DNA of 59,959 nt from an uncultured Eubacteriales bacterium. Its GTDB lineage: Bacteria > Bacillota > Clostridia > Oscillospirales > Acutalibacteraceae. The translations under genes were made by a program, and so were the position numbers. The notes under the pieces are model-generated. The model was not told the DNA's origin. It made no database searches and saw only the letters and a list, made by a program, of their open reading frames with translations. The stretch is from contig OMZU01000021.1 in NCBI GenBank assembly GCA_900315605.1, forward strand, positions 1-59,959, read 5' to 3'. Shown piece after piece: positions 39,643 through 48,269 of the stretch (within the stretch, counting starts at the first letter, position 1; the number at the start of each line of letters is the position of its first letter).

Positions 39643-39734
39643 GGAGAGATGTCCGAGCTGGCCGAAGGAGCATGATTGGAAATCATGTGTACGGTAATCA
39701 CCGTACCAGGGGTTCGAATCCCCTTCTCTCCGCC
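39643..39734 (+). tRNA. tRNA-Ser (anticodon GGA)
   Basis: A 92-base class II tRNA with an encoded CCA. Acceptor GGAGAGA pairs with TCTCTCC. The anticodon arm CATGA-TTGGAAA-TCATG gives GGA, reading UCC and UCU. The long variable arm is GTACGGTAATCACCGTAC and the T arm is AGGGGTTCGAATCCCCT. The discriminator is G. Its last four bases (GCCA) are also the first four bases of the 115-bp repeat that follows. Confidence 0.97.
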
Positions 39735-39845
39735 AGAAACGCCGGAACCACCGTTCCGGCTCAACGAATAGAGAATAGAGAATAACGAATAGTTTATAAC
39801 AGCTTAACCTTTGAGGCGTTTCTGTATTATTCGTTATTCTCTATT
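39731..39845 (+). repeat. tRNA-Ser-associated structured element, copy i (115-bp direct repeat, left)
   Basis: Identical to 40299-40413 at 114 of 115 positions (the difference is in the loop GGAACCACC versus GGAACCGCC). Parts: CAGAAACGCC (39733-39742) complementary to GGCGTTTCTG (39814-39823); hairpin GCCGGAAC-CACC-GTTCCGGC (39740-39759); and heptad-repeat strand GAATAGAGAATAACGAATA (about 39773-39791) complementary to TATTCGTTATTCTCTATTC (about 39827-39845). The two long helices interleave (A-B-A'-B'). Confidence 0.85.
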
Positions 39846-39882
39846 CTCTATTATTTATTCTCTAAAAGGAGTAGAAGAATTT

Positions 39883-40272
39883 ATGACATATAGTAGTCCT
39901 TTGTTAGAAAAATCCTTATACTTTGCCGCACGTATCGTTAAGCTGTATCAATACCTGTCAAAAGAAAAGAAAGAGACCATAATTTCAAAACAAATCATTC
40001 GCAGCGGAACCTCAATCGGCGCAAACGCCAATGAAGCGGTCTACGGTGTGAGTCAGGCTGATTTTATAGCAAAACTGCAAATTTCACTCAAAGAAACAGC
40101 CGAAACGGAGTATTGGTTAAGGTTGTTGAATTTGTCCGGTTATATTGATGATAAGCAAGCAAAGTCGCTGATAGATGACTGTTTGGAAATAAAGCGTATT
40201 TTGATAGCATCCTTGAAAACAGCAAAGGATAAAAAGATTAACGCAAGTTCAGTTCCGGACAAAGAATTTTAA
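39883..40272 (+). CDS. Four-helix-bundle protein (S23/23S-rRNA-IVP family)
   Basis: A 129-residue all-helical protein of the family TIGR02436/PF05635, also known from open reading frames in intervening sequences of 23S rRNA genes and related in fold to the Avd protein of diversity-generating retroelements. The family block is R-S-G-T-S-I-G-A-N-A-N-E-A at about 41-53, followed by S-Q-A-D-F-I-A-K-L and K-E-T-A-E-T-E-Y-W-L. The start ATG 39883 follows AAAGGAG by 12 bases. The 24 codons before it in frame are the repeat itself. The gene lies between two near-identical 115-bp elements next to tRNA-Ser. No reverse transcriptase or rRNA is nearby. The molecular function of the family is unknown. Confidence 0.9.
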   Translation: MTYSSPLLEKSLYFAARIVKLYQYLSKEKKETIISKQIIRSGTSIGANANEAVYGVSQADFIAKLQISLKETAETEYWLRLLNLSGYIDDKQAKSLIDDCLEIKRILIASLKTAKDKKINASSVPDKEF

Positions 40273-40298
40273 AAAATCATATTTTTTAGCTCATCCTT

Positions 40299-40413
40299 GC
40301 CAGAAACGCCGGAACCGCCGTTCCGGCTCAACGAATAGAGAATAGAGAATAACGAATAGTTTATAACAGCTTAACCTTTGAGGCGTTTCTGTATTATTCG
40401 TTATTCTCTATTC
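40299..40413 (+). repeat. tRNA-Ser-associated structured element, copy ii (115-bp direct repeat, right)
   Basis: Second copy of the element at 39731-39845, placed 568 bases downstream, with the same two interleaved inverted repeats and hairpin. No tRNA sequence precedes it. Its heptad-repeat tail is interrupted by a nested miniature element, and it resumes at 40519 as TATTCTCTATTCTTTATT. Confidence 0.85.
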
Positions 40414-40518
40414 AGACTGTGCTAAAACCAAAATGCTGTTCTATATATAGATATATAACGTTGATAATAATCAATAAAAACTCAATATATAGTATGATGC
40501 GTTTTTATGCACGGTCTG
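40413..40518. mobile_element. Nested 106-bp miniature inverted-repeat element
   Basis: Ends CAGACTGTGC and GCACGGTCTG are inverted repeats (9 of 10). Inner blocks AAAACCAAAATGC and GCGTTTTTATGC extend the match with gaps. Flanks are TATT at 40409-40412 and TATT at 40519-40522, consistent with a 4-bp target duplication. The interior is AT-rich and noncoding. Insertion splits the heptad tail of copy ii. Confidence 0.65.
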
Positions 40519-40562
40519 TATTCTCTATTCTTTATTGTTTTAAAATCAAATCCAATGCAAAT

Positions 40563-40606: not shown

Positions 40607-40761
40607 TTAAGGCAACACCGCACAATTCATGGTGCACGCCTTGCTTGCATATTATTCCGTCAGACTGTCCAAAAATCAGTATGCACACTGATTATTTGTA
40701 CATTCTGACGAAAAATCTGACTACGCAATCCGCGCACCAGAATTATGCAGTATTGCCTTAA
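40607..40761 (-). repeat. TTAA-type MITE-like repeat, copy D (complete)
   Basis: A 155-bp element with TTAA at both ends. Termini TTAAGGCAACACCGCACAAT and (other strand) TTAAGGCAATACTGCATAAT match at 17 of 20. Inside are the blocks shared with copies A and E in reverse orientation. It ends one base before the plsY stop codon. This is the only copy with both termini and interior. Confidence 0.8.
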
Positions 40762-48031: not shown

Positions 48032-48067
48032 TGTCAAAAATAGGCAAATCAGTGAATAAAGAAAAAA

Positions 48068-48180
48068 GAATAAAGAATAGTGAATAATACGCCGGAAACG
48101 CAGGAAACGTTAATCTGATTATTATTTATTCTCTATTCTTTATTCTTTCTTCTTTGAGCTTCACGTCAGTGAAGCGTTTC
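48068..48180 (-). repeat. tRNA-Ser-associated structured element, copy iii (diverged)
   Basis: Begins directly after the CCA of tRNA-Ser(CGA). On the minus strand: GAAACGC (48180-48174), hairpin GCTTCAC-TGAC-GTGAAGC (48175-48158), heptad strand GAATAAAGAATAGAGAATAA (about 48145-48119), GCGTTTC (48101-48095), then a TATTATTCACTATTCTTTAT strand (48089-48068). Same order and pairing as 39731-39845 but a different hairpin sequence, so base pairing is kept while bases change. No protein gene accompanies it. Confidence 0.75.
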
Positions 48181-48269
48181 TGGCGGAGACGGCGGGATTC
48201 GAACCCGCGGGGGATTGCTCCCTAACTGATTTCGAGTCAGCCCCGTTATGACCACTTCGATACGTCTCC
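48181..48269 (-). tRNA. tRNA-Ser (anticodon CGA)
   Basis: An 89-base class II tRNA on the minus strand with an encoded CCA. Acceptor GGAGACG pairs with CGTCTCC. The anticodon arm CTGA-CTCGAAA-TCAG gives CGA, reading UCG. The long variable arm is TTAGGGAGCAATCCCC-like and the T arm is GCGGGTTCGAATCCCGC. The discriminator is G. Confidence 0.97.

Follow-up and report, generated by a model that had tools for sequence, protein, structure and literature searches.

The window analysed here (the whole stretch of 59,959 nucleotides, from an uncultured bacterium of the Acutalibacteraceae) carries a tRNA-Ser(GGA) gene directly followed by a repeated, structured sequence, called E below, and by a small gene of the S23 type. 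The features of this locus, together with those of a second host in the same window, are the following.

39643..39735, plus strand: tRNA-Ser(GGA), the host or docking site (ARAGORN; Rfam RF00005, 53.5 bits), with its CCA at 39733-39735
39736..39866, plus strand: E1, structured leader of unit 1, starting on the base next after the CCA (repeat, fold, and covariance model at 146.3 bits)
39736..39743, plus strand: A arm of E1, GAAACGCC (read from the sequence; A:A' covariation in 69 related leaders)
39741..39760, plus strand: hairpin H of E1, overlapping the 3' end of the A arm (predicted fold; covarying pairs)
39767..39793, plus strand: B arm of E1, made of 7-nt repeats (predicted fold; inverted repeat)
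39815..39822, plus strand: A' arm of E1, GGCGTTTC, followed by TGTATTATTC (read from the sequence; A:A' covariation in 69 related leaders)
39826..39852, plus strand: B' arm of E1, made of inverted 7-nt repeats (predicted fold; inverted repeat)
39883..40272, plus strand: S23-type four-helix-bundle gene, 129 aa (PF05635, TIGR02436, PDB 2rld_A)
40247..40302, plus strand: 3' end of unit 1, with GTTCAGTTCC (T-loop-like core, within the 3' end of the ORF), a ATCATATTTTTTAG tract and a closing CCA (comparison of unit junctions)
40303..40413, plus strand: E2, leader of a second, decayed unit (repeat; model match of 119.7 bits)
40414..40513, plus strand: a segment of about 100 bp (ends imperfect, AGACTGTGC / GCACGGTCT) interrupting the B' arm of E2, a putative insertion, B'-like sequence continuing 3' of it
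40515..40536, plus strand: continuation of the B' arm of E2 (91% match to query 109-130)
48181..48269, minus strand: tRNA-Ser(CGA), second host in the window (ARAGORN)
48032..48180, minus strand: gene-less unit, with E right after the CCA and then the 3' end GCCTATTTTTGACA before AAACAAAAATCC (model match of 130.6 bits)

The S23-type gene is preceded by a likely ribosome-binding site (AAAAGGAG, 39864-39871). Its product gave 87.6 bits against PF05635 (cut-off 33.8, E 7.8e-25), 97.5 bits against TIGR02436 (cut-off 24, E 5e-28) and an E-value of 9.8e-31 against PDB 2rld_A. Both curated cut-offs are exceeded, and the gene is a member of the S23/IVP protein family. An earlier note on this DNA had described such a gene behind tRNA-Ser(GGA), bracketed by two near-identical 115-nt copies which begin on the final G-CCA of the tRNA and contain each a 10-bp inverted repeat, a short hairpin and a heptad helix. 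Apart from the bracketing, this description was confirmed. The direct repeat of 115 nt lies at 39732-39846 and 40299-40413 with 99% identity, and position 39732 is the base before the CCA. The 10-nt A/A' pair of each copy (CAGAAACGCC / GGCGTTTCTG) was read by eye, being under the length cut of the repeat search, and the inverted-repeat search gave a heptad complementarity of 25/25 in copy 1 and 19/19 in copy 2. The predicted fold of copy 1 contains both the heptad helix and the short hairpin H; its energy is -56.1 kcal/mol versus -20.9 (sd 3.1) for 200 shuffles (z -11.2). As for the bracketing, both copies are there, but the second one is the start of the following, decayed unit and no closing bracket, since E leads units in the wider family. 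A repeat of about 155 bp at 40607-40761, with inverted ends TTAAGGCAACACCGCACAATTC / GAATTATGCAGTATTGCCTTAA, is MITE-like and has many copies in the genus.

The leader consists of three pairings, A:A', the hairpin H and the heptad helix B:B', in the order A-H-B-A'-B', so that a pseudoknot would result if A:A' and B:B' coexist. In an alignment of 20 copies, 94.2% of the cells were paired, compared with 35-56% when the partners were slid, and 53 cells showed changes on both sides versus 20.4 (sd 3.4) in shuffled and 2-10 in slid alignments; the number of pair types was no higher than in shuffles (20 versus 21.0). Among 69 wider leaders the A arm has 22 forms, and a match to the own A' at 7-8 of 8 positions was found in 63 of the 69, compared with 14% for leaders of another A and 3.6% for shuffled A. 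The repeats are specific for period 7, at which 20 of the 69 leaders pass, with 0, 0, 1 and 0 for periods 5, 6, 8 and 9. The mismatches in B:B', whose register was set on Watson-Crick pairs only, are 76 G-U and 21 A-C, and no G-U excess was seen in A:A' by itself (10 G-U, 6 A-C). Because the upkeep of an inverted repeat at the DNA level should equalise G-U and A-C, the bias in B:B' likely reflects a folded RNA of the E strand and not DNA; the p value of 1.7e-8 for this bias is too small, the rows being related, and the tree, the shuffles and the p values used in this work all treat related rows as independent. At the gathering thresholds of Rfam, the leader had no match in the window, where only tRNA was found, or in 20 related loci, and the sub-threshold matches were hairpin-like only (e.g. 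cow-rumen-4, 23.3 of 48.5 bits).

S23 homologues were then considered without using E. A similarity search with the protein of the window gene supplied the loci, and the best 80 of 295 were taken; their titles name Ruminococcus, Clostridia, Clostridiales, Clostridiaceae, Oscillospiraceae or Bacillota. In these best 80 of 295, a called tRNA or tmRNA ends less than 300 nt upstream in 60 loci, and a CCA-anchored leader is present in 69, as judged by anchor patterns written after the upstream tRNA calls of the same 80 loci were seen. By eye, the other 11 loci comprise five variant leaders, two cut at a contig end and four without leader. In 56 of the 69, at most 3 nt separate the start of the leader from a called tRNA or tmRNA, and these hosts are of 16 kinds. 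The cultured R. flavefaciens MA2007, for instance, has an S23 gene behind tRNA-Gln(CTG) (L209). In a phylum-wide S23 sample, only one of 29 loci has a tRNA within 600 nt upstream, which ends 187 nt away and is followed by an apparent terminator. The association of S23 genes with tRNAs proposed in the earlier note thus holds for the close homologues and does not extend to the 29 phylum-wide loci, from which the tRNA link appears as a property of one branch of the S23 family and not of S23 genes generally. A quick tree of 93 proteins split off 11 comparison rows (10 of the 29 phylum loci and the own C18 copy) by one change with a support of 94. Counted over 66 rows, the host changed 36 times or more along the S23 tree; many forks of this tree lack resolution, and four of the hosts were set by eye.

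The S23 genes at L001 (own C18) and at phylum loci such as L336, L339, L347 and L349, which are tRNA-free, show 7-nt tandem repeats, inverse across the gene, whose sequence varies by place. The phylum genes are like the window unit in having 7-nt repeats, which pass a strict cut at 5 of 29 loci, and common inverted 12-mers up- and downstream (13 of 29), but their repeats stand on both sides of the gene and no tRNA adjoins. On the own contigs C14, C17, C19, C25, C27, C32, C41 and C52, other elements were seen by eye to carry the same GAATA-type heptads at their ends, with TCGGTCGGGAAGA / TTCCCGACTGTATTA palindromes after them, in many cases close to the end of the contig; the C18 S23 element has ends related to these.

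The leader is also found apart from the window locus in the same genome, where two E copies stand around an S23 gene behind tRNA-Gln, solo copies lie behind tRNA-Pro and tmRNA, and one copy (C69) has no called tRNA nearby. With this repeated layout, the solo copies at tRNA-Pro, tmRNA and tRNA-Ser(CGA), and the close homologues having both the leader at 69 of 80 loci and covariation in it, the association of gene and flank is not accidental, in agreement with the earlier note, whose condition for an accidental association (homologues without such flanks, and no covariation in them) does not hold for the close homologues. A covariance model of E, built from the 20 copies, found it in 43 of 161 genomes of the genus (E <= 1e-5), all but two of these 161 being draft assemblies and many metagenomic, and in 29 of 300 genomes of the family (1e-6). 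We read 78 strong matches, namely those of at least 60 bits among the matches listed, minus two opposite-strand shadows of counted copies. Among these listed matches, 38 of the 78 start exactly at the CCA of a tRNA or tmRNA called by ARAGORN, 13 start behind the T-tract of the tail of another unit, and 27 were placed by the script outside both main classes. By eye, these 27 include un-called tRNAs, additional junctions between units, some copies that follow a short duplicate of a tRNA 3' end, and some outright exceptions.

Of 93 readable tmRNA genes, 7 are occupied by E and 86 are empty, in a sample of 90 fetched genes, minus 2 without downstream sequence, plus 5 previously known as occupied; the CCA was set 9 nt early in six genomes, all six without E. 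No strictly orthologous empty site was found, and for the window locus, none of six plsY loci scanned in relatives has an adjacent tRNA. The trailer 3' of an array in genome G123 (TAAAGGATATGCAAAAAAGATATATCC..) lies directly after the CCA at the tmRNA of G053 and G113, which is consistent with an empty site, although not an orthologous one, because this trailer occurs behind different RNA genes.

Several other sequences were observed behind these RNA genes. The locus L086 (G085, tRNA-Gly) and the loci L049 and L084 (G006 and G097, tmRNA) share the same truncated S23 gene and downstream flank behind different RNA genes, which may result either from recombination between E copies or from chimeric assembly. 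A second kind of tRNA-trailer repeat occurs at L060, L062, L064 and several tmRNA loci (e.g. L297, L293, L314); it comprises a terminator, an inverted copy of the T-arm/acceptor of its own host and a core like GACCGTGCCGAGCAAAGCGAGG, with a direct copy of the tRNA 3' end in some, behind which E may stand. In at least 18 of 88 tmRNA-locus genomes (e.g. L246, L283, L288), a common stretch beginning AACAAGTATTGGATGAACACCTAC.. follows the tmRNA CCA directly; it translates in frame as a protein C-terminus (..SGGFAV..) and is possibly an integration remnant.

Comparison of the junctions shows by sequence that a unit consists of E, a gene (S23 or another) and a 3' end that includes a T-arm-like motif, and that another E may start directly after this end. 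A common tail stands behind varying genes (e.g. GGGTTCACTACCCC..CATCTTTTTTGCCTATCCTTGACA), with the next E starting after it, and is composed of a T-loop-like GTTCR core, an ATC-T(n) tract and a closing (A/C)CA. The GTTCR core was found 25-95 nt upstream of 13 of 15 junctions, one of the two misses being cut by a contig end, compared with 202 of 1560 random places. S23 is the most frequent cargo among the units sampled, and units exist which share the same ends and carry other genes instead. Non-S23 cargo with both ends was seen in three units of two kinds and in one of a third kind. An array (G123:C28) has two units in line that code for unlike proteins of 123 and 144 aa; at the tmRNA of G130, a unit with a 141-aa relative of this 144-aa protein is followed by an S23 unit; and a unit of G147:C44 carries a gene for 269 aa. 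At the tmRNA and the tRNA-Ser(CGA) of the own genome, the tail follows E without any gene. A 62-aa ORF behind an E, whose 3' end lies outside the sequence read, matched PF20037 (DUF6440), and for the other cargo Pfam, NCBIfam and PADLOC gave sub-threshold matches only.

A duplication of the target as the origin of the tail was considered and rejected: some tRNA-Met tails resemble the tRNA-Met 3' half, and most tails, by eye, mismatch their host. At L099/L057 (G042:C7), a RelB/RelE-like pair (by eye) lies between tRNA-Gln and E, ahead of a unit-type tail, in which TTCGTGGGTTCRAA matches the T-arm of the host tRNA-Gln.

We propose, with a probability of roughly 65%, that the window locus is one copy of a family of mobile gene cassettes that dock at the 3' ends of tRNA and tmRNA genes. 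The distribution of the units points to their mobility, since the hosts are of many kinds. Such a unit would be expressed from the transcript of the host tRNA, and processing at the CCA would free the tRNA and leave an mRNA with a pseudoknot at its 5' end, which would shield the mRNA and spare the tRNA. The junctions would best fit the insertion in trans, by a recombinase, of a circle at tRNA-like ends, with a circle junction ..GACA/GAAACG.. as inside the arrays and a tail that would mimic a tRNA 3' end for insertion; this step is proposed more cautiously than mobility itself. No recombinase was found for this step, and most of the stretches read carry none.

An RNA-level route for the insertion was weighed, in which the unit's RNA uses its A' to pair with the host's CCA terminus and is copied by a reverse transcriptase primed there. 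Extension of a CACCA end along A' would yield GAAACGCC, with which E begins. In the genus, YGGTG follows A' at 15 of 16 CACCA-ending hosts versus 1 of 17 others (Fisher p 2.5e-7, on related rows), in a table of 33 of 38 rows from which three without readable A' end and two tRNA-Arg with odd ends were dropped, and in which one tRNA-Gln row is missing and one Ser-type row doubled, the 2x2 classes being unaffected. At the host tRNA-Ser(CGA), which ends in CGCCA, YGGCG follows A' in both readable copies. The match of YGGTG and YGGCG with the host ending indicates that A:A' reaches into the host CCA end in the genus; the pairing is not general, since most CACCA hosts among the 80 loci have a short A' form, and units located behind tails have mixed A' forms. 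The RNA-level structure of the leader would also suit retro-insertion, as would the kinship of S23 with Avd, the accessory protein of diversity-generating retroelements, described as a homologue of the S23 fold family in PMC10053308. The units read contain no reverse transcriptase, template repeat or variable repeat of such a retroelement. A reverse transcriptase was found in 18 of 43 genomes with E versus 39 of 118 without (p 0.35), and none was found in such E-rich genomes as G147, G046, G133 and G153. The only one of the own genome lies on another contig, as a 629-aa frame with one stop in what reads by eye as a group II intron. A resident reverse transcriptase as the mobiliser was rejected for want of association with E, and from the same counts it is not needed. 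We consider retro-insertion unlikely.

The locus might also be a kind of rRNA intervening sequence whose stem, excised by RNase III, is now carried in tRNA transcripts; we hold this to be distinctly unlikely. Both have an S23 gene (PF05635), inserted in a structured-RNA gene that is still usable, with a long helix beside it, and a phylum relative (L346; 16 of the 29 phylum loci searched) has its locus with a 23S rRNA gene. In rRNA intervening sequences, terminal inverted repeats form a stem whose loop contains the ORF, according to PMC4990558. The window ORF is not enclosed by such a stem: the main helix has its two arms upstream of the ORF, in pseudoknot order, and the analogy of layout first drawn for this locus was given up on this point. 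The unit docks behind tRNA or tmRNA and not within 23S rRNA, the window locus giving only tRNA in Rfam at gathering; other cargo and arrays occur, and the tRNA-linked proteins are set apart from the 11 comparison rows of the quick tree.

It is very unlikely that E is the end of larger integrative elements at tRNA 3' ends, with S23 as a passenger. An ORF (L121, 1-1024) that by eye resembles the C-terminal portion of large serine recombinases ends where the G123:C28 array begins, and a duplicate of a tRNA 3' end precedes several of the E copies. A complete unit measures 0.5-1 kb and has the same two ends at many tRNA kinds, mostly no recombinase is present in the stretches read, and the leaders covary as RNA. 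Tycheposons are tRNA-targeted integrative elements; elements of this class share with the units the insertion at a tRNA 3' end and a tail like the 3' part of a tRNA, whereas the units, of about 0.5-1 kb and without recombinase, start after the CCA and leave the whole tRNA untouched. S23 is the only ORF in the complete unit of the window, and no recombinase gene of a tyrosine-recombinase element is found there. That E is an immobile regulatory trailer inherited vertically with its downstream gene is hardly credible in view of the host changes, the empty tmRNA genes and the arrays with unlike genes, even if the tree shows clustering for some hosts, such as tRNA-Arg(CCT).

The proposed cassettes docking at tRNA and tmRNA ends would work like the gene cassettes of integrons. 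Both are small units with structured ends, mostly with one gene and no promoter seen, lined behind a fixed docking site. In the units, unlike integron cassettes, many different tRNAs or tmRNA can serve as this docking site, and the ends are not attC-like. Ends of the attC type read GTTRRRY, which is not the case, by eye, for the A' forms GGCGTTTC, GGCGCTGT and GCCGCTTT. No integron integrase was noticed near the units in a non-systematic reading of stretches of about 1-3 kb each. The unit, although it would work like a gene cassette, was not assigned to the integron family. A fuller picture, which we put forward only tentatively, is that of an integron-like system without integrons, in which the tRNA or tmRNA would be both docking site and promoter, the T-arm-mimic ends would become new docking sites, the leader would base-pair with the host CCA, and S23 would be a shared RNA-binding factor. 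By analogy, S23 is most likely a helper that binds RNA, has the leader as its target and could serve all units of the cell; RNA binding is suggested by its grouping with Avd and the proteins of rRNA inserts in PMC10053308. The binding or mobilisation of E by the S23 protein, put forward in the earlier note, is kept here as a candidate role. The family looks undescribed, none of the known kinds of element compared here having accommodated it, and a search of the open-access literature, with most subscription journals and bioRxiv outside it, found nothing on tRNA-linked S23 genes.

S23/IVP proteins are common and have solved structures. With S23 as the gene most often carried by a mobile unit whose docking site, ends and RNA partner are defined, binding, processing and movement would become directly testable. 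If this reading is true, the rumen and gut Clostridia would possess a gene-cassette platform that borrows tRNA promoters, and with it an RNA element obliged to coexist with the maturation of tRNA and tmRNA.
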